Shown here one piece after another: positions 2,512 to 13,191 of a stretch of DNA of 23,873 nt. Source of the DNA: a virus. The position numbers were made by a program, and so were the translations under genes. A model generated the notes under the pieces. It saw nothing but the letters and a program-made list of their open reading frames with translations. It did not search any database and was not told the origin of the DNA. Position 1 is the first letter of the stretch, and the number at the start of each line of letters is the position of its first letter. The stretch lies in IMG/VR virus record IMGVR_UViG_3300031775_000610, positions 1 to 23,873 of that record; one strand, 5' to 3'.

Positions 2512-4574
2512 TGCCACATGAAGTAGGTCACGAAACGTCAGCACGTTATGCCAACTTACCTAAAAGCGGTCAATCTATTGAAGCTCTGCAAAAGCTATAC
2601 GACGCAGCTCCCGACCCAATTACCCGAACCGCCATTGCTCAACTTATAGCAGGAGTTAAGCAAAATAAAGGCATGACAGGTGCTCAATACGAGGATTACC
2701 TCAACTTAAAACAGGAAATCCTTAACCAAGAAAGTTTCACTCGAAGCGAGCTAGACAACTCTATGGTTCGGGGGACAGCGGGTGATACATGGCGACGTGG
2801 CATTACGCAATTAGAAAGTTTATACCCACCCGACAAGGGCTGGGTTATTATGAGCGAAGTTCCTAATACACAAGCTGGTGAGGTTGTCTATCAATTTAAA
2901 AACTTGCTAGATAATATGCCTGTTGCAACATGGACTGGCACTTTCATGGACGGGGCGTTGGTTGCAGTCACCCCTCCAGAAAAAACTGAGACTGATTCAC
3001 CCGCATCAGCTGATGACTGGTACTTGTCGAAAGACAGGCTAGACGACAGCATCACTCAGATGGTAGCAAGGGTTCCTACAACATTTGACCTCGGAGACGG
3101 CCAGTCTATCGATGTAGCTGTAGGTGACACATTCCATTCCAGTGATGGGGGAGCTACTTGGATGCGTGGAGTTGCACCATTTGCTACAGTCGACAGTGCT
3201 ATTCCAGCTCCGGAATCTAACTACGACGCCCTTCAGCTTATGTTGGACTTTCAAGTTGAAAAACGCCTAGCCTTACAAGACCAAGCTAGTGTCCGCAGCG
3301 ATGCTGCAAAGCTAGGCTTTTCGTATGAGGAATTAGCCCAAAATACTGCATTAGAGCAATCGCGTCAGGCTGAAGATGCTCGCCAGTTTAATATGGGCTT
3401 TGGTGAACAGCAGCGTCAGTTCAATGTAAACACCCAAGAGGCCGCGCTGCAACGCATCGCGCAAGGGCGAGCAGCCGAAGAAGCTAACGCGACACAGCGA
3501 TACTTTAGTAGCCTTGAAGAGCTTGGTCGGAACTACCGAACAATGATTGAAACATCTCCTGCAATGGCTAACGCTGCCACAAATCAGGGAGAGTTAATAA
3601 GAAATATATTAAAGGAAGGTGGAGATGTACTTGCTCGCACATACTTCACTCGTGGCGGGATGTCTCCGCTCCCAGAAATCACTCAGGCGGATCTCATTAA
3701 CAACCTTAATGACGAGATGGTTCAGCTTCAGGAATTTGAAATCAACGCAGTAAACCAAGAAAATAGGCGCATTCAGCGAGCAGACCGAGATCGTGCTCGT
3801 GCCGAGTACCAGACATTTGTCAATGCAGAAATGGCTAAGCCGCAGGAAATGGTAGGGAAATCTAGGTTTGACCAACAAGGCTGGGATAAAATGGTTGGTG
3901 GTTGGGATGAGTTTGTCGGCTCAGACCGATACGCAGCGTCGATTGCAGCAGGAGAAGAAGCGCAAGCTGCCCTTGACGCATTTAATTTTGAGGAAGTTGC
4001 CGCCGCTGCTGTGCCAAGAGATGCCACAGGCGCAATCGACGAGATGGCGGGAGGTCTTCAGGCTGGGTTGGATGCCGCGCAAGCGCAGAAGAATGAGTTA
4101 CAAAGTGCAGTAGCTCAAGCTGCAAGTGAAACAACAATGCCTAGCGAAGGTATGTTTACAGAGAACTGGACAGAGTTGGCCCCTCGTAACATATCTACGT
4201 TCGACCAATGGTACGACGCTGGCGGGGCATCGTTTGGTCCTAGTTCGTTATTAACACCGCCTAAGTTAAATATTCCTCGTAGAGTATTCCAAGACCAGCT
4301 TATAGCAGACGCTAGAGCGACTACTCCACCAGCGGTTACGTCTGTGATGTCAGGGCAAATGCCAACCCCGTTATCGTTTGGGAATATGCCACTACCAACA
4401 TTCCAGCAGCTCCAAGCGTTAACTCCTACCGAGCAGCAAATGTTTAATCAACGCTTAATGACTGAATACAATGTCCCATTAGCTGATGTTGCGTTCCAAA
4501 GCCAGCGTCAATTCGGGGAGCCAAGCGCAGGACGCAGTAGAGACCTTGCTAAGTTCAGGGGGTATTCCGTTTAA
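2511..4574 (+). CDS. Large helical virion protein (probable internal/ejection protein)
   Basis: A 687-aa protein with no enzymatic signature that I can identify. The N-terminal ~100 residues are helical. Residues ~110-240 are beta-rich and include an exact Asp-box consensus, SSDGGATW (210-217), as found in beta-propeller turns. From ~235 to ~480 it is a long Gln/Glu/Arg-rich helical stretch (for example EQSRQAEDARQFN and EQQRQFNVNTQEAALQRI), with coiled-coil character. A turn region around GGMSPLPEITQADL follows, then more charged helix and an Ala-rich segment. The last ~110 residues are Pro/Thr/Ser-rich. Long rod-like helical proteins beside the portal commonly are core or ejection proteins or connector-associated proteins; that role is inferred. 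TAATG overlaps link it to the 96-aa gene before it and to the giant gene after it. Several overlapping frames inside this gene are shadows. Confidence 0.68.
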   Translation: MPHEVGHETSARYANLPKSGQSIEALQKLYDAAPDPITRTAIAQLIAGVKQNKGMTGAQYEDYLNLKQEILNQESFTRSELDNSMVRGTAGDTWRRGITQLESLYPPDKGWVIMSEVPNTQAGEVVYQFKNLLDNMPVATWTGTFMDGALVAVTPPEKTETDSPASADDWYLSKDRLDDSITQMVARVPTTFDLGDGQSIDVAVGDTFHSSDGGATWMRGVAPFATVDSAIPAPESNYDALQLMLDFQVEKRLALQDQASVRSDAAKLGFSYEELAQNTALEQSRQAEDARQFNMGFGEQQRQFNVNTQEAALQRIAQGRAAEEANATQRYFSSLEELGRNYRTMIETSPAMANAATNQGELIRNILKEGGDVLARTYFTRGGMSPLPEITQADLINNLNDEMVQLQEFEINAVNQENRRIQRADRDRARAEYQTFVNAEMAKPQEMVGKSRFDQQGWDKMVGGWDEFVGSDRYAASIAAGEEAQAALDAFNFEEVAAAAVPRDATGAIDEMAGGLQAGLDAAQAQKNELQSAVAQAASETTMPSEGMFTENWTELAPRNISTFDQWYDAGGASFGPSSLLTPPKLNIPRRVFQDQLIADARATTPPAVTSVMSGQMPTPLSFGNMPLPTFQQLQALTPTEQQMFNQRLMTEYNVPLADVAFQSQRQFGEPSAGRSRDLAKFRGYSV

Positions 4575-7500
4575 TGGCTAGTAAATACGACCTTCGTAGA
4601 TCTTCTTCCTCGCAGGGAATTCCTGCAAAATCTAGCCCTCAAGGTGGGCAGGGTTTTGACTCGGAAGGGTTTAAAGGCCCTTCGTTCGAGACGCCAGAAC
4701 AACGACGTGAGCGGTTACGGAGGGAAGAAGAGGAGCGCAAAGAGCGTGGCGGAAGTGGTTTACTGTCCGACATTGGCTCTCTTATTTCCGAGGGGTTCAG
4801 TAAAGCCCGTTCAGGGGCACAACAATTTGCTGAGCTAAGTACATTTGGATCTACTGACCCAGAGTTTCAGCGAGCATGGATGGAATCGCAAGCTGACCCT
4901 GAAGCGCGTAAGGATGCGCTATTAAGTTCGTATTTAGAAACATATAACGAAGAAGCTAGACGACTTAACGCAGACGATGACCCCTCTAATGACCAGCGAG
5001 TATTTGATGTAAGTGGCATGGGTCCAGACATTAATATTCCATCAATAGGGTCTGGGAAAATGCGGACTCCTCAGATTGGTTTTAACACGGGAGATGTAAT
5101 GCAAACCGTGGCAGAAGAGACAGCCCACCCAATTAACGTCGGTATTGGGATGTACGGCAAGGGAGCTGCCCAGTTAGCAAGGGCAGGTACAACAAAGCTA
5201 GGTTTATTAAAGTCGGGAATCCAAACGCCAACATTAACAAAAGGATTAACCACTGGACAATATGGCAGAATATTTAGTGGCCCGTTCTTAAAGGCGGGAA
5301 TTACAGCAGCTCAGGCTCCGTTATTTGCTACGAAGATGATTGTTGAGCCTATAGTCATGCGTCAGGCAAGCGTCCCAGCTACGGTAGCAGGAGAGGTGAT
5401 AGCAGCTACGGTAGCCCGTAGGACTTTTGAAAGTGTGTATAACTCTGACATGTTTGAAAGCTATCCTACCTATGCCAAGGCTGGAGCGGCTGTAGGCGTA
5501 GCGTTAGGCGTTGGCTCAGCAGCATCTATTCAGCTTGGAAAAGCGGCTGGTAAATTTGATCCTGTAGCTATTCGAGCAGGTAAACAGCAAATACAACAAG
5601 CCATCGACCAAAATGCGTTAGACGACACAATAGATGAATTAGATTTTCTTGAGCGAAGAGCAATATCAGGCAATGAAATTGTTCCGCAAGGGCTAGGTGA
5701 TGCTCCCGTACACGTAGGCCATAGCGACGTCGTGTACGTTGGAGTCGGTGGCGATGGAAGGCCGCTTCTGAAAGAGGACGGTACGTTGCTTGTATCTGAT
5801 ACCCCATCCCGATTTGGGGGAGCCGCAGCGGACACGGCGGTAGTTCGCAAAGATGCGCTAGACATGACAGCAGGAGCGTATGAAAATTCCACACTTCCGC
5901 CTTTTACAGAAGGTACGTTAAGAGGGCAATACGGACAAAACATTACTAGGCCAAAAACTAGGGAAGGATTATTAAAAGAAGATCATAAGACGCTATATCA
6001 CATAACCGATAAAGGCGACGAAATTCGACGCGATGGAATGGTAAGGGCCATTACGGATGAGACTGCTGCTCTTCAAGGTGGCGGCTTTGGTGGGTCTGTT
6101 CGAGGAAGTGTATCAACTACTACTTCCCGTGGAATGGCTGAACAATTGCAAACAGATCTTAGGCGAAGAGTAGAGATATCTCAGAATGAAACTCCTGAAG
6201 AAATTACGAACACATTAAACTCATGGGTAGCAGCTGACACACTTAAGGTTAATGTAGACGAGCCTATTTTTAATGCAAATGAAATAGACGCTATTGTCTC
6301 CGCAGCTCAAGCTCAGGGTGGCCCGCTTCAGTTAACAGCATTAGACACCTACTTTATACGACGTAAAGCAAAAGGCATCGAATTGTTTGGTGAGGAAGAA
6401 ATGCCGCCGGTGTTCCGCGACACGTCACCTATTCACAATAAGACGCCAGAGGAATACAGGTCACTGGACCCTGAAAGCATAGAGATTTTAGAACTAGACA
6501 CGGCCCTTATTCCTGACGGTGCGTTTATTAGCGGTCATGGTGTGGAGCGAGATTACTTTGCAGGGCCATTTCAGGGCCGAGTAAGTCAAGGTACAGGTGT
6601 TATAGTTGACGACCCAGACGCACTATTTGAAACAGAAATATTTGCAGACATACCATTCCCTCGCACTGACCGCCAGCTGCCGCTTCCGTTGCCTCCGAAG
6701 ACTAATCAAGAATTATTGTCTCAAGCGTCAGGCGACCTACAAGTGTATAAAGACACACTAGACCCAACGGACTACAGGCAAATAGTTCGGCGAGCGCAAA
6801 TAAACCAAACGCTTGAGGCGGAAACTGCTAGTGCGGCTGAGATTTTAGATTTAGTTAAGAACCAAAGAAAGTATATGACAGCCGATGGCACTGTGATTGA
6901 TTGGGACGAAGTGCCGATGTTAAACACATCTACTCAGATGGGCCGTTTAATATACGACGAGAATGTGCGACGTGTAGAGCTTAGCAACGTATATCTTTCG
7001 TTGCGTTACGCTAATTGGGAACAAAACATATTTAATCCTAAAGACATTGATTTACCTGCGGGCGCGGGTGCGGGGCCTAACAAGGTGTCTTTTGCGTCCC
7101 TTGTACAAGACGGGCGCTGGAACCCCCGACTTAAAGAGCTAGGAGTAATGAAGCTCAATGACGGGATGTACACATTTCATGGTAGAGCAGGACGGCAAAT
7201 TGAAGAGAAGCTAAAACAAATTCGTGCTGAATTAGATTTGAATGTAGACATTGATGAACTGAATGGCATTACACCTGAAACTATAATGTCCACCAAGTTC
7301 CAATTTATTCCCCCCGCAGTAAAAAAAGAGATGGATGCTATGTGGGAAAGCGGCGAAATGCCCTACTTTGGCGACGTTGTTGAACGTTCTCTTGGCGATT
7401 ACAGAGGTTACTTTCCTCGGTTTGTTACTAACCCCCAGAAGGGAATTACTGGTCACAGCGGGAGTCACACCTCTGCGTCGTATGACAAAACTAGGCGCGT

Positions 7501-10500
7501 AGGGTGGTCTCTTGACGAAGAGGGACACCCGATAGGGGAGTATGAACGCCAGATGTGGCAGATGGCCGACGAAATGGCAGTAGACCGAGATAACCCTATT
7601 GAGTACTTAGAAGATCCGTTAAAGATTTTAGGCCTACGACTCAAGGCTACGCTCGACAGAACAAATGCTCAGTGGGTAGAAGACGCCGCGTTGTCATCTC
7701 CAGCGTTTGATGGCTTAGGAGGCTACACCGCTGTAGAAAGAATGCAGATGGATTCCACATGGCAGCAAACTATGGATGTACGTGACCTTGCATTCACTAA
7801 TGTCAAAAATATACTTAACCGAATTAGTAGCTCTCCCGCTCAAGCGCGAGCAGAGCAAAGAAGGCTTTTAGGGGTAAACCTACAGCGAGCAGCTGCAACT
7901 GCGGAATCGTCGGGCCTTAGTCCGAAAGAAGCCGAGTTGCATGCGAACATAATAGAAAACGGGCGAACGCTTGCAGGTGAGATAGACACTTTTATGTCTG
8001 ACGCCGACTTAATGGTGTTCAATGCGAAGGATGTAACAGGAGAAAGTTTCGGAAGAAGTGTGCCGTATGGGGGGCCTACCACTCAAGCGATGTCACCACC
8101 TGCTGTACCTGTTCGCTCAGCTCCTAAAACAATTACAGATCTTAAAACAGATCTTAAAGCAATGCGAAAAACATTAAATGACGCAGCGGCTTTAGGTGAG
8201 ACTGGTGGTCCGTCTTCAAGTGCGCTATGGAGTTCTGTTCAAGAGCTACGCACAAAGTACGAAAAAGCGTTAGACATTTATAACAACTTTCTAAAAGGCC
8301 GTCCAGCGGTAAAGCGTAACATTGCCGCTCAATCAACATTTGACTCTCAAACAAACCGTTCTAACGCGCGTATTGTGCGACAAGAAGTTTCTAGTATGGA
8401 GTCAGAAATAGCCACTATAAACTTGCTTCGTAGCGTAATCGAAGACAAGATAACGTATGTAAACCGTTTACAGCCCAGTGGGTTGCCCCGCATACAAGCG
8501 CAGTTAGATAAAGACTTAGCAGACTTGACGCAAGCCGAAGAGCAATTAGCTATGGCTAGGGGCATGTATAACAGAGCTTTAGAACAAGCGGGTGAGGCTT
8601 CGCTTACTCCCATATCAGACTCATTAAATATGGTACAGCAGCCACGAGTCAGAGGCGGCCAAACGATTATGAAGCGTGATGGGAGTGGTCCTGTCATGGA
8701 AACTATTGTCCATCCAGCAGCAGCTCAATCAGGAAAGGTTCGCTTCCTTGCCAATGGCGCAATGAAAGATCATATATATGATGACGCCTTTGCCGACCAG
8801 CTAGACAGAGTGTTTAGGGCAGACATATCGGGTCAGAACTCTATGGAACGGGCGTATAACAATTTAAATGATGTGCTGCGTACCATCAATGCGAGTGCTG
8901 ATTTCAGTGGGTTAACTATTCAAGGGATGCTCGGCGCTGGATTGACTCCTTCGCAGTACGCTTCAGCAGTCGCAAGAAGTATGGCGGCGGTAACTGTAAG
9001 CAAAAGATTCTACACAGGATTTTTAGTTCGAGAAGAAGACACTATTAGAGAAATGACAAAATGGGGTAGGGTCCAGCTCGCTAACCCCGATAACGCTGGA
9101 GAGTTTCTTGTGCCAAAAAGTTTTGGTATTGGTTCTGCCCAGTTTCGTTTAGCTGGCGATGTGGGGCCTCGTTCAAGCCATAGAAAGATAAACCAAGCGG
9201 TCTCTAATAAAGTGCGTAAAGTGCTAGGTAGCAGTCAGACCTTCCCCCCGAACTCTGTCACACCTAAAGATGTGTTGTATGGAAGCGCACAGGCGGCGGT
9301 GTATATAGCAGAAAAACCTGTGTCTATGGTATTGAATGCGTCTAACCTACACTTTTCCGCTTTCGGGAATATTATGCGTGTGCATTTATGGAAAAACATA
9401 ATGGCTAATAAGCATCAGGCTGACATGATTAGAGTAGATAAGGGTGGTAAACGTAAAAAAGAAGTGTACACCCGTAAAGAAATGCTGGAAATTGGTGAGG
9501 CAATTAACAACCTTACGGGCTATGCGCGAGGTGAGCCAAGCACCATTGAGCGAACTTTGCTGTTTGCTCCGCGATTTTTCAGGGCGCAAACACAGAGTGT
9601 AGCAACTGCTATAGGTGACGCTGGCCCTGCTGGGGACTTAGCAAGAGAAAGTTATTTCCGTACCTTGCTTATGCTAGGGACATTAACTGCGGGCCTTAAC
9701 TATATGATTGGGGAGGGGCAGACAGATTTTGTTCCTTTCTTACGAGACCGCGACGGAACGTACAGAACTAACCAGAACTTTATGAAAGTGCATTGGAACG
9801 GCAGGGACCATTCCCTTGCAGGGCCGTTAGACAGTCAGTGGAGAATGTGGATGGCAACAGTGCTAAACACAGGCTTCCCCGTAGAAGCCCAAGCAAAGGC
9901 GTTTCAAGGTAAGCTCGGTTCAGCATTTGACAAAGCATTAACATTTTTTGTAACCCAAGAGGGTTTCGGTGGCGAACCGATGCCTCGTCCTATTTTGCCA
10001 ACAGGCAGATACGCTGACGCTGACTTTGATTCACGAATGCAATCGGTAGAGCAATACGGCAAGGGGTTCCTTCCTTTCTGGATGCAAAATGAATTGGATG
10101 AAAAACGTGATTTGGGACAATCATGGGGAGAACGCTACGGAAAAGGGCCGCCCCCCTCTATGTTACTTAACATGATCGGTGGGAAAGACGCACCTGTAAC
10201 TGTTAAAGAAGCAGTGCTTGGAATAGCGCGAGTGCGTTACCCAGACAGGGATTACAACCTTACAAATCGTCCCGTACCTGCCCATGTCAGGAAAGAAATT
10301 TATGCTGACAACCCAGATTTAGCTGCCCGCGATACCCGTGTAGGCGACGCAATGCTAGATGCTGAGTACACAGAATCGTATCAAGTAGCCAAGACCGAGA
10401 TTAAAAAAGCTGAGGCAGTGCGCGATAAAGAGCTATCTGATTTGGGGATGATGGTGTTAACTGGTGAAACAGGTCGGAATATGCTGCCGCGAGAAATCGG

Positions 10501-11554
10501 TAAAATTCAAGGGCAGCATTTTGGAACCATAGCGGGTTTGCGAGCTGGGTTAAGTGAATTTGAAAATGCCGCAGGTGGCGATCTGTTTTTTGAAATGGCA
10601 GAAAAAATGTTTAAGGCGTATGGTCAGGCTACTCAGCCATACACAGGGTTGGACTTTGATAAGTTAGCATCGATCCAAGAGGCTATCGAAAAAGAATATG
10701 GCGCCGAGTTAACCGATCAGTTCAACGATTATGTTAAGGATGCCGCATACCCACCTGCAATACAGGAAGTTATGGAAGCAGGATCTTATTTGCGTGAGGC
10801 TGATTACTGGTCTGCCCCAAACGATGTGTTCCAGAATGCGCTGTTTGCCGTAGCTGAAGATTCGGAGTTTCGTAAAGCAGCTGAGCAAGACGGAGTTGAA
10901 GCCAAGCAGTTAGTAGACGCATTTGCCAAGATATTACTTGATGTCTTTGGCCGCCCTATTAAAACCCTTAGTGATCTGGAAATCGCTGCTCGTCAAAATG
11001 GAGTGTTGGGTAAATGGCAATACCGCGCATTAGTACGGGGAATGAGGGAGGTGCTAGAAAAGGAGCGTAATGAGCGAGCTCGTAATGATCCGAATTTAGA
11101 CCTTGCTCGTGTGTTGTACTTAGGAAAATACCCAGCACTAAATCCAGAAACAACTACGCTGGGTGGGTTAGCTGGATTAGTCGACGTGGACTTAAACATA
11201 GACAGTTCGTTTGCTGATCACAGCATTGCTGAAAACACAACTATGTTCTTTAACGCAGTGTTAGCTAATCCCGTGCAAAGAATAGATGAGCTTAATAACT
11301 TTGCTCATCCTGAAGTAGCGTGGAAATGGGTGCAGATACAGCAGCTACTAATGGCTTCCGGAGACAAGCTGAAAGCCAACTACCGACAGCAAGCCCAGCA
11401 GCTCCCTCGCCCAGATGAGAACCCCACAGGCATGGGCTTAACCTCAGATGTTGAATCAACTACTCGCAGCTGGTCTCAGCAAATGAATGAAATCATGGGA
11501 CTTCAATCAACGCGAGGCCCTTCCGGATCTCCTCCCACTAGAGTAGCCCAATAA
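4574..11554 (+). CDS. Giant multidomain virion/ejection protein (2326 aa), possible ADP-ribosyltransferase-like segment
   Basis: One uninterrupted 7-kb frame. Seen in order: a disordered charged N-terminus with an Arg/Glu helix (~41-59); Ala/Gly-rich amphipathic helices (~200-325); a segment at ~470-665 with LYHIT (His476), SVSTTTSRG (512-520) and GHGVERDYF (Glu658), reminiscent of the H-[ST]-E layout of ADP-ribosyltransferase folds; a conserved-looking core around YFPRF (946-950) and an Arg/Leu-rich helix (~1013-1037); a coiled-coil region (~1180-1340); a segment at ~1570-1780 (around 1645, NLTGYARGEPSTIER, then APRFFRAQ) that resembles regions of giant phage polyvalent proteins; then ~500 mainly helical residues. 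Size and position suggest an internal protein ejected with the DNA, as with the large core proteins of T7- or N4-like phages, but no lysozyme, protease or RNA polymerase motif was found. Start is the ATG in a TAATG overlap, with AGGGGG about 10 bases upstream. The stop codon abuts the leftward gene's terminator. Confidence 0.72.
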   Translation: MASKYDLRRSSSSQGIPAKSSPQGGQGFDSEGFKGPSFETPEQRRERLRREEEERKERGGSGLLSDIGSLISEGFSKARSGAQQFAELSTFGSTDPEFQRAWMESQADPEARKDALLSSYLETYNEEARRLNADDDPSNDQRVFDVSGMGPDINIPSIGSGKMRTPQIGFNTGDVMQTVAEETAHPINVGIGMYGKGAAQLARAGTTKLGLLKSGIQTPTLTKGLTTGQYGRIFSGPFLKAGITAAQAPLFATKMIVEPIVMRQASVPATVAGEVIAATVARRTFESVYNSDMFESYPTYAKAGAAVGVALGVGSAASIQLGKAAGKFDPVAIRAGKQQIQQAIDQNALDDTIDELDFLERRAISGNEIVPQGLGDAPVHVGHSDVVYVGVGGDGRPLLKEDGTLLVSDTPSRFGGAAADTAVVRKDALDMTAGAYENSTLPPFTEGTLRGQYGQNITRPKTREGLLKEDHKTLYHITDKGDEIRRDGMVRAITDETAALQGGGFGGSVRGSVSTTTSRGMAEQLQTDLRRRVEISQNETPEEITNTLNSWVAADTLKVNVDEPIFNANEIDAIVSAAQAQGGPLQLTALDTYFIRRKAKGIELFGEEEMPPVFRDTSPIHNKTPEEYRSLDPESIEILELDTALIPDGAFISGHGVERDYFAGPFQGRVSQGTGVIVDDPDALFETEIFADIPFPRTDRQLPLPLPPKTNQELLSQASGDLQVYKDTLDPTDYRQIVRRAQINQTLEAETASAAEILDLVKNQRKYMTADGTVIDWDEVPMLNTSTQMGRLIYDENVRRVELSNVYLSLRYANWEQNIFNPKDIDLPAGAGAGPNKVSFASLVQDGRWNPRLKELGVMKLNDGMYTFHGRAGRQIEEKLKQIRAELDLNVDIDELNGITPETIMSTKFQFIPPAVKKEMDAMWESGEMPYFGDVVERSLGDYRGYFPRFVTNPQKGITGHSGSHTSASYDKTRRVGWSLDEEGHPIGEYERQMWQMADEMAVDRDNPIEYLEDPLKILGLRLKATLDRTNAQWVEDAALSSPAFDGLGGYTAVERMQMDSTWQQTMDVRDLAFTNVKNILNRISSSPAQARAEQRRLLGVNLQRAAATAESSGLSPKEAELHANIIENGRTLAGEIDTFMSDADLMVFNAKDVTGESFGRSVPYGGPTTQAMSPPAVPVRSAPKTITDLKTDLKAMRKTLNDAAALGETGGPSSSALWSSVQELRTKYEKALDIYNNFLKGRPAVKRNIAAQSTFDSQTNRSNARIVRQEVSSMESEIATINLLRSVIEDKITYVNRLQPSGLPRIQAQLDKDLADLTQAEEQLAMARGMYNRALEQAGEASLTPISDSLNMVQQPRVRGGQTIMKRDGSGPVMETIVHPAAAQSGKVRFLANGAMKDHIYDDAFADQLDRVFRADISGQNSMERAYNNLNDVLRTINASADFSGLTIQGMLGAGLTPSQYASAVARSMAAVTVSKRFYTGFLVREEDTIREMTKWGRVQLANPDNAGEFLVPKSFGIGSAQFRLAGDVGPRSSHRKINQAVSNKVRKVLGSSQTFPPNSVTPKDVLYGSAQAAVYIAEKPVSMVLNASNLHFSAFGNIMRVHLWKNIMANKHQADMIRVDKGGKRKKEVYTRKEMLEIGEAINNLTGYARGEPSTIERTLLFAPRFFRAQTQSVATAIGDAGPAGDLARESYFRTLLMLGTLTAGLNYMIGEGQTDFVPFLRDRDGTYRTNQNFMKVHWNGRDHSLAGPLDSQWRMWMATVLNTGFPVEAQAKAFQGKLGSAFDKALTFFVTQEGFGGEPMPRPILPTGRYADADFDSRMQSVEQYGKGFLPFWMQNELDEKRDLGQSWGERYGKGPPPSMLLNMIGGKDAPVTVKEAVLGIARVRYPDRDYNLTNRPVPAHVRKEIYADNPDLAARDTRVGDAMLDAEYTESYQVAKTEIKKAEAVRDKELSDLGMMVLTGETGRNMLPREIGKIQGQHFGTIAGLRAGLSEFENAAGGDLFFEMAEKMFKAYGQATQPYTGLDFDKLASIQEAIEKEYGAELTDQFNDYVKDAAYPPAIQEVMEAGSYLREADYWSAPNDVFQNALFAVAEDSEFRKAAEQDGVEAKQLVDAFAKILLDVFGRPIKTLSDLEIAARQNGVLGKWQYRALVRGMREVLEKERNERARNDPNLDLARVLYLGKYPALNPETTTLGGLAGLVDVDLNIDSSFADHSIAENTTMFFNAVLANPVQRIDELNNFAHPEVAWKWVQIQQLLMASGDKLKANYRQQAQQLPRPDENPTGMGLTSDVESTTRSWSQQMNEIMGLQSTRGPSGSPPTRVAQ

Positions 11555-11580
11555 AAAAAGGGGGCATCCAGCCCCCCCCC
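11553..11580 (-). terminator. Intrinsic terminator of the leftward gene (partly bidirectional hairpin)
   Basis: Stem GGGGGC (11560-11565), loop ATCCA (11566-11570), stem GCCCCC (11571-11576). On the minus strand the hairpin is followed directly by seven T (complement of 11553-11559), the classic rho-independent arrangement, 25-50 bases after the stop of the leftward gene. On the plus strand the hairpin lacks a T tract, so it should stop rightward transcripts from the giant gene only weakly. The T tract overlaps the last two bases of the giant gene's stop codon. The C run is nine long (11572-11580). Confidence 0.8.
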
Positions 11581-11604
11581 TCTGCTATTTGACTTTATGT
11601 ATCT

Positions 11605-12210
11605 CTACTCGTGAAGACGATCTGTTGTCCACTTCCGGAGCTTGTCGAGTTCAGCATCGACATAAGCCTTAGCTTCCTTCCGAGTTCCGAATCCAAGTAT
11701 TGAATCATGATCGACGCGATCATCTCGTTTCCAACGGGCGTTTCTATCACTGGCTAGATGTACCGAGCGATACGCATACCATTTAGGAGAGCTGTGGTGC
11801 TCGTAAGGTTCTGTGTTCCATGCCCACACGGGATAAGACCCCGTAGTCCTGTACCCTCTAGGCCTGTGCGCTCCCGTTTTGAGTGTCCATAACCTGCGAC
11901 GCTCAAGTTCTCTTACCTTAAATGAGCGACCAGTTTTTCGGTGGAACCACCTTTTCGGATACTCATCCTTAGGGTTTCGTATTGTTCGAGTCCGATTGTG
12001 GTTTCTGATTGCCACTGCTTCTTGGTATCCGCTTGGTATATCGTTAGTCCACTCGTACCCAAGAGCAAGGAACGCCTCTACCTCTTGGAGTGGCTGACCA
12101 CTTTCCTCCGCGATTATTTCAGCTTTCGACTTCCCTTCATTAGCCGATGCTTTCAAGTCGTCCATAGTTGACTGCGTATTTATCGTCTCGCCAGATTCTG
12201 CGCTATGCAT
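11605..12210 (-). CDS. Antisense moron-like gene, basic protein of unknown function (possible DNA-binding)
   Basis: The only leftward gene in the window, about 201 aa from ATG 12210 (or 186 aa from ATG 12165). I do not recognise the family. Residues after the 12165 start (KSKAEIIAEESGQPLQEVE) look like a helix-turn-helix. The middle is rich in Arg, His, Trp and Tyr. The C-terminal part contains KWYAYRSVH and later ILGFGTRKEAKAYVDAEL, a strand-then-helix pattern faintly like AP2-type DNA-binding domains. No HNH, GIY-YIG or LAGLIDADG motif is seen. A TTG start at 12246 would lie inside the -35 box of its own promoter and is rejected. Neither ATG has a clear ribosome binding site; ATG 12210 falls at the predicted transcription start, so a leaderless message is possible. 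With its own promoter and terminator it behaves like a moron cassette. It may be a regulator, a host-takeover or exclusion protein, or a degenerate homing-type protein. Confidence 0.7.
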   Translation of the reverse strand: MHSAESGETINTQSTMDDLKASANEGKSKAEIIAEESGQPLQEVEAFLALGYEWTNDIPSGYQEAVAIRNHNRTRTIRNPKDEYPKRWFHRKTGRSFKVRELERRRLWTLKTGAHRPRGYRTTGSYPVWAWNTEPYEHHSSPKWYAYRSVHLASDRNARWKRDDRVDHDSILGFGTRKEAKAYVDAELDKLRKWTTDRLHE

Positions 12211-12216
12211 ACACAC

Positions 12217-12246
12217 AGTATAACACATGTTGATTACTTCTGTCAA
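12217..12246 (-). promoter_or_regulatory. Sigma70-type promoter for the leftward gene
   Basis: On the minus strand, TTGACA (12246-12241, perfect -35) is followed by an 18-base spacer and TATACT (12222-12217, five of six to TATAAT). A start of transcription about seven bases downstream would be at ~12210, which is the A of an in-frame ATG. This is the strongest promoter match I see in the window, and it implies that the gene can be read by unmodified host RNA polymerase, independent of the late operon. Confidence 0.75.
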
Positions 12247-12314
12247 GCCCCTAGCAACTTCCGTAACCTACTTAAATCTATCGTAATGTTTGCTGATTAA
12301 TGTAAAAGGAAGTG

Positions 12315-12344
12315 TTGACGGGGTAGTGTAAACAAAATTAGACT
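12315..12344 (+). promoter_or_regulatory. Candidate sigma70-type promoter for the capsid unit
   Basis: TTGACG (12315-12320, five of six), 18-base spacer, TAGACT (12339-12344, four of six to TATAAT). Predicted start at ~12351 leaves a short leader before the scaffold gene's ribosome binding site. It is weaker than the divergent leftward promoter about 70 bases away, but it lies in the only sizeable rightward intergenic gap upstream of the capsid genes. Confidence 0.5.
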
Positions 12345-12361
12345 ATGAGCACAGATGTTCT

Positions 12362-12370
12362 AAGGAGGAA
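12362..12370 (+). promoter_or_regulatory. Strong Shine-Dalgarno site of the scaffold gene
   Basis: AAGGAGGAA lies immediately upstream of ATG 12373. It is the longest anti-16S match in the window and fixes the scaffold start. Its strength suits a protein needed in hundreds of copies and contrasts with the coupled TAATG starts of the neighbouring operons. Confidence 0.75.
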
Positions 12371-12372
12371 CA

Positions 12373-13191
12373 ATGACACAAGAAGTAGATGCTCAGACGA
12401 ATGAGTGGATTACGAACGCAGCACCAGCTGAGGATACCTACGCGACGGCTCCCAGCGAAACTGAATACGTGGTTCCTGATTCCACAGACCCATCCACACT
12501 GATCACTGCGTTACAAGAGCGAATAGACCAGCTGGAAAAGAATTTCACTGACAGTAAACATGTCACGAATCGCGCAACCAGCTCTTTAGATAGGCTTAAT
12601 AACAAAATCGAACAGTTTGCCACCAAGCAAGACCTTGAAGCCACCGTTGAAAACGTGAACGGAATCCGTACTCTTATGGAAGTAGGGCTGTCTGACGTCA
12701 TGTCAGAGGAGGGCCGAGAACACTTAGCCCAGCAACAGCAAACCACAAACTATAACAGTATGCTTTCGCAAGCCAAAGACGAGATGCGACAGGAATTGAA
12801 TGGGGCCTCACCCGACTCTGTGGCAGGTCAAGTAACAAATGAACAATTAGATGAGACTGAAGCGCGAGCGCGTTCGGCATCAGATCGTGTGTACGGTTAT
12901 GCTGAAGCGCGGGGTATTTCTGCTCAAGAAGTCCATGACCTCCCTATCTGGAGTGCTCCTAACAAATCGTTAGAAGAAGCAGTACAGTCAGCTAAGGAGT
13001 ACATAGACAATATGGTAAATAGAGATAACCCAAATCAAATCGCACAAAGTAAGCAAGCTGCCGGTGCTACACCAGCGCGAGCGTCATCTAGTTCTCAAGT
13101 GTTGACCATTGAAAAAATGAAAAACATGTCACCACAAGAGATTATGAAGATCCCGAAAGAGATCAGAAATCAGGCTCTCCGAGGTGGCTAA
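12373..13191 (+). CDS. Capsid scaffolding protein (probable)
   Basis: A 272-aa acidic, Gln/Glu/Ala-rich protein with almost no aromatic core, lying 19 bases upstream of the major capsid gene, the canonical place for a scaffold. Scaffolds line the prohead interior, guide coat assembly and leave before or during packaging. Seen: a disordered acidic N-terminus (1-40), a long coiled-coil helix (~40-105, e.g. ALQERIDQLEKN), a Gln-rich segment (~118-125), further charged helices (~155-215), a Ser/Ala/Pro linker (~230-242) and a basic C-terminal helical tail (LTIEKMKNMSPQEIMKIPKE), similar in placement to the coat-binding C-terminal helices of known scaffolds. No Ser-His-Asp protease signature is seen, so a protease-scaffold fusion is unlikely. 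It has its own candidate promoter and a strong ribosome binding site. The identification rests on composition and synteny. Confidence 0.78.
   Translation: MTQEVDAQTNEWITNAAPAEDTYATAPSETEYVVPDSTDPSTLITALQERIDQLEKNFTDSKHVTNRATSSLDRLNNKIEQFATKQDLEATVENVNGIRTLMEVGLSDVMSEEGREHLAQQQQTTNYNSMLSQAKDEMRQELNGASPDSVAGQVTNEQLDETEARARSASDRVYGYAEARGISAQEVHDLPIWSAPNKSLEEAVQSAKEYIDNMVNRDNPNQIAQSKQAAGATPARASSSSQVLTIEKMKNMSPQEIMKIPKEIRNQALRGG

Follow-up and report, generated by a model that had tools for sequence, protein, structure and literature searches.

The closest precedent for the locus described here is the PeSL (promoter early stem-loop) mobile regulatory cassette of T4-type phages, as outlined in what PMC4503421 and PMC4177764 relate of Arbiol et al. 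2010 and Comeau et al. 2014. In these outlines, as in the cassette analysed here, a promoter and a stem-loop are common to unrelated accessory genes, an arrangement proposed to mediate modular shuffling by recombination. Unlike the PeSL cassettes so outlined, the cassette here has a shared 5' element that runs 27 codons into the protein, belongs to a phage that has a P22-like coat and is not T4-like, and is present singly in each slot, on the strand opposite the structural operon. The pid gene of P22, in the account given of it in PMC3573128, is likewise an ORFan moron; it lies in the late region of a phage whose coat belongs to the same family and is transcribed against its neighbours, and relatives have nothing or another insert at its site, as they do at the site studied here. 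That account mentions neither a shared coding header nor an exchange of cargo between common cassette ends. The internal proteins of T4, which are non-essential and several of which inhibit restriction enzymes, also have a conserved N-terminal peptide before divergent effector proteins (PMC9026906, PMC12373910). Their capsid targeting signal comprises 10-19 residues and is proteolytically removed in head maturation, whereas for the phage here no prohead protease was recognised in the head-region genes scanned (all but the small gene 2221-2511). In archaeal viruses, different small orphan anti-defence genes, which are poorly conserved, share one conserved strong promoter sequence (PMC11065993), a further likeness to the cassette; there, however, the promoters are archaeal, no coding segment is shared and function was tested.

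A leftward gene between the giant and scaffold genes

The window, by which we mean the whole 23.9-kb stretch of DNA analysed, is a virus record; the phage is tailed, and its coat protein is P22-like (PF11651, phrog_267). In rightward order, the terminase end and more head-region genes come before a giant gene, which is followed by a putative scaffold gene and the coat gene; other structural genes and a lysozyme-like gene lie beyond. The sole sizeable intergenic gene on the opposite strand (11605-12210/12246) lies between the giant and scaffold genes, hereafter slot 1, and the coordinates proposed for it in the original prediction hold; the gene starts at 12210 and stops at 11605. The predicted product length of 186-201 aa corresponds to two in-frame ATG codons, at 12165 and 12210, respectively, and a TTG at 12246 would give 213 aa. 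As ATG 12210 lies only 6 nt past the -10 element, a leaderless mRNA is predicted. The features of the locus are collected in Table 1; header denotes the first 27 codons from ATG 12210, and cargo the remainder of the gene. Because no ATG occurs within the window cargo, the start must come from the header.

Table 1 Coordinates of the cassette and its flanks in the window
Feature	Position	Strand	Remarks
Giant gene (2326 aa)	4574..11554	+	Left flank of slot 1; strongly divergent among relatives
Cassette terminator: G+C hairpin, loop TGGAT, T7	11553..11579	-	In all cassettes with the header, both slots
Cargo of the window: 174 residues, basic (pI 9.8), without internal ATG	11605..12129	-	No known family
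Shared coding header, 27 codons, MHSAESGETINTQSTMDDLKASANEGK	12130..12210	-	Start ATG 12210, predicted leaderless; alternative ATG 12165
Cassette promoter TTGACA-18-TATACT, extended -10, conserved spacer GAAGNAATCANCATGTG	12217..12246	-	Predicted from sequence
21-bp motif TACGATAGATTTAAGTAGGTT upstream of the promoter	12265..12285	-	Common to all cassettes with the header and to the slot-2 operon of G026
Scaffold gene promoter TTGACG-18-TAGACT	12315..12344	+	Equivalent sequence in all relatives, cassette present or not
Putative scaffold gene (272 aa)	12373..13191	+	Right flank of slot 1; named from its position ahead of the coat gene

The promoter elements described earlier were confirmed, with a -35 TTGACA at 12246-12241, an 18-nt spacer and a -10 TATACT at 12222-12217, and an extended-10 TG was found besides. 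This is the sole site in the window that scores at least 11/12, against expectations from first-order Markov shuffles of 0.55 and, with the TG, of 0.017. The pattern of the motif, 3-22 nt and TTGACA had one match apiece in 8 of the 34 records and none in the reversed control. Over the records and loci scanned, the promoter class was confined to two accessory slots, weaker matches with 7 mismatches falling inside the giant gene of other relatives. The GC hairpin and seven T reported downstream of the gene were also found, as GGGGGC-TGGAT-GCCCCC at 11576-11560 followed by T7 at 11559-11553, where the terminator abuts the TAA stop codon of the giant gene (11552-11554). The 15-nt terminator core is unique within the window (chance expectation, 0.02). 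Our terminator scan overlooked this hairpin, probably because the G run is able to pair with the T run in the fold. The 5' end was folded once as a candidate RNA element and gave no convincing structure. These predicted signals, a promoter and a terminator that belong to the gene and are conserved across carriers, support the autonomous moron architecture originally proposed.

The scaffold gene is preceded by a strong ribosome-binding site (AAGGAGG) and a promoter-like sequence (window 12315-12372), both conserved in all relatives. Since the scaffold gene has this conserved promoter-like sequence of its own, slot 1 lies between two transcription units, and an insertion there disturbs little.

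Relatives were gathered by a coat-protein search of IMG/VR, which yielded about 30 close ones, and the giant/scaffold junction could be read in 26 records. The comparison of relatives for presence or absence, advised in the original prediction, found the cassette in 5 of the 26 (among them G002, 99.95% identical to the window). The other 21 lack it with both flanking genes intact, and the giant gene ends 54-77 bp before the scaffold ATG. With its own putative signals and this presence or absence between intact flanks, the leftward gene is, from its sequence context, a moron. Scaffold identity to the window is at least 78% in the visible carriers and at most 66% in non-carriers; because presence tracks scaffold type in this way, the cassette may have been gained at slot 1 only once.

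The protein at the same place in G003 is 76% identical to the window protein. After the header, the two genes differ with dN 0.17 and dS 0.41, and the changes split 27/26/46 over the three codon positions; this retention with dN below dS marks a real protein-coding gene under purifying selection. The window protein had no match in Pfam, PHROGs, NCBIfam, PADLOC, PDB sequences or 50,697 phage records, and nothing above chance in 72,556 plasmids, which agrees with the earlier statement that the product is unlike known families. A glycosyltransferase of an Aureimonas plasmid (E 0.3) was rejected as a homologue, and Arm-DNA-bind_4 and minor-tail matches of the G003 cargo (E 0.12 and 0.01) were set aside as chance level. 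The product had been expected to be basic and possibly helix-turn-helix; the basic character stands, whereas the helix-turn-helix gained no backing, with no family match and an unusable AlphaFold2 model (pLDDT 43.6; 40.8 for the G005 protein).

Fixed ends and exchanged cargos

The main point to emerge, absent from the original prediction, is a shared header with exchangeable cargo that also occupies a second site. A protein search with the window product returned three loci that matched just its first 27-29 residues. This header (81 nt, 95-100% identical) is the same in the window, G001, G002, G004 and G005 and differs by 4 nt in G006, with 3 of these 4 changes synonymous, and by 1 nt in G003, where the alignment figure of 78/81 includes an edge effect and the codon comparison gives the single difference. 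The header peptide, MHSAESGETINTQSTMDDLK..., is fused in frame to the cargo in the predicted product. One header and one terminator enclose three unrelated in-frame cargos of about 174 (window), 216 (G005, G004) and 110 aa (G006), with pI values of 9.8, 7.3 and 4.3, respectively. Similarity breaks off at codon 27, with 95-100% nucleotide identity before it and none detectable after. In the comparison with G006, the most distant carrier, header identity is 95%, compared with 72-82% for the scaffold and coat genes. Few records document the exchange of cargo: the header occurs in seven, and two of these are nearly identical to each other. Patterns for the header (two, protein-degenerate), the promoter and the terminator, searched in viral contigs, returned the same six contigs only.

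Homology between carriers is lost where the header ends, at 12123-12125, and returns at the terminator. Over 12.3 kb from 11550 rightward, the window matches G001 at 99.7% identity, but the two giant proteins are only 24.7% identical; the switch falls exactly at AATAAAAAAAGGGGG, where the stop codon of the giant gene meets the cassette terminator. The whole giant gene is exchanged between the window (4574-11554) and G001 (L110, left of 5807), and giant proteins within the family are often just 22-50% identical. Between the window and G003, the scaffold start (228 nt) is 100% and the scaffold leader 98% identical, compared with 85-90% for the remainder, as expected of a putative recombination tract beside the cassette. 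On these alignments, the cassette ends are recombination junctions, which lie, as in a PeSL-like cassette, within regulatory elements (the header end and the terminator) and represent few events.

The second site, slot 2, is near the lysis genes. The cassette of G004 is flanked there by the lysis genes on one side and a small MerR/HTH_17-like gene on the other and runs antisense to its neighbours, and none of its 245 codons differs from the slot-1 cassette of G005 (97.4% identity over 862 nt), in unrelated surroundings. As the G004 and G005 fragments overlap by 339 bp at 98.2%, they possibly reflect a single phage species that has the same cassette in each slot, and not a move. Slot 2 of G026 (L106:3113-5949) holds a four-gene leftward accessory group under the same motif and promoter; in this operon the header peptide is missing and the ribosome-binding site is normal, and another similar promoter stands ahead of a 183-aa gene. 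Its genes gave no family matches, and a Csm4-like PADLOC match of one of them (E 0.013) was rejected as chance level. In slot 2 of G003 (L101:7546-7758), a 70-aa leftward gene has a promoter of the cassette class, a terminator of its own and a Pfam match at chance level only; G003, filled at both slots, thus carries two cassettes with different payloads. A gene at L101:15960-16970, in the leftward block of the early region of G003, encodes an ArdC-like anti-restriction protein (ArdcN, E 2e-16; phrog_7245, E 2e-43).

The same promoter and stem-loop are thus found around three different cargos, and the promoter class also precedes other slot-2 genes. Judged by these comparisons, the cassette is a unit with fixed ends (motif, strong sigma70-type promoter, the 27 codons at the start, terminator) and a variable middle, placed at two antisense sites.

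Explanations for the shared ends

We consider it probable that an exchangeable PeSL-like moron cassette with a coding header carries the leftward gene as one of its payloads, and that recombination in the shared ends of such cassettes swaps host-takeover or anti-defence proteins. Host RNA polymerase would transcribe the cassette without phage factors, and translation would initiate at the leaderless ATG of the header. The product would be made shortly after the DNA has entered the cell, or else during lysogeny or a carrier state; the scaffold promoters are sigma70-like too, in all relatives, so promoter type alone cannot separate early from late. Homologous recombination among co-infecting relatives, anchored in the header-to-scaffold stretch and in the terminator, would swap the middle with expression kept, and the host or defence encountered may drive the turnover of payloads. 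The payloads would be small proteins that act on host processes or defences, a role assigned only by analogy with P22 pid, the T4 internal proteins and the archaeal-virus anti-defence genes because homologues are known for none of the cargos. The most fitting view of the header is that of an adaptor that serves expression and recombination, not of a domain with an activity of its own, and the site looks like a plug-in slot for host-interaction genes.

Four other explanations were weighed. The one that survives best, which we nevertheless regard as unlikely, is that the lasting element is the operator-promoter of a lysogeny or accessory locus (slot 2) that was copied to slot 1, so that the cassette would be a repressor-controlled prophage exclusion gene. 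The lambda cI transcript from PRM has a leaderless start, which the start predicted here resembles, and the motif and promoter are conserved jointly. Slot 2 of G013 (L105:7174-9641 = G013 27174-29641) has, after the lysis genes and in the same antisense orientation, an HTH repressor-like gene, a gene for a 251-aa protein and a tyrosine integrase. However, G013 itself is without the 21-bp motif and the cassette promoter, and it is the only relative in which an integrase was seen; G003, at 37.7 kb the best-covered carrier, has no integrase or repressor among the genes scanned, and by eye no inverted-repeat operator was recognised. A tRNA-Gly (CCC) comes next after the integrase module of G013 and could be an attachment site or a hint at the host; a host search of genome contigs with the header pattern and the coat protein gave no usable relative.

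That the header has a targeting function is a less likely possibility. It is doubtful that the 27-residue peptide is a working tag that gives unrelated effectors a common fate, whether by having them packaged in the virion and injected along with the DNA or by docking them on a common host partner. A conserved N-terminal peptide does precede variable, unrelated cargos, as in capsid-targeted internal proteins, and the cassette adjoins head genes; T4 Ip proteins have such a characteristic N-terminal signal before divergent effectors (PMC9026906, PMC12373910). The predominance of synonymous changes in the G006 header would also suit a constrained peptide, but conservation extends to the synonymous header sites, a sign of DNA-level identity or of recent exchange. 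At slot 2 of both G026 and G003 the promoter class is found with no such peptide, the header peptide showed no similarity to other proteins of these phages, and the head-region genes scanned supply no recognised protease. Were the tag real, the site would be a universal plug-in effector slot, comparable to the T4 capsid-targeting system yet independent of it.

Divergence of one ordinary moron that the sub-clade's ancestor acquired a single time is already disfavoured by these data, and we think it improbable that the differing C-terminal parts are products of extreme divergence with the conserved start as the sole alignable remainder. The common scaffold type among carriers fits one gain, and a cargo of the window type does diverge, as the 76% identity between the window and G003 attests. 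Such divergence is nevertheless hard to reconcile with the abrupt break at codon 27, with the unlike lengths and pI of the cargos, and with the presence of an identical cargo at another site. A selfish element (homing endonuclease or transposon) spreading for its own sake is very improbable, since no cargo matched an endonuclease, transposase or recombinase and the cargos vary while the ends stay constant, for all that presence and absence, two insertion sites and a basic, possibly DNA-binding window cargo might suggest one.

Significance for related phages

If the reading as an exchangeable cassette is true, the locus would be a clean natural case of moron exchange, with crossovers in shared control elements and in the codons at the start of the gene, such that proteins are exchanged as in-frame fusions. 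The 'mobile regulatory cassette' idea developed for T4 would then extend to phages with P22-like coats, with a coding header as part of the cassette. The motif, promoter and header would together provide a sequence handle with which to collect host-interaction genes in a group of uncultured phages, the cargos of which fall into no known family.
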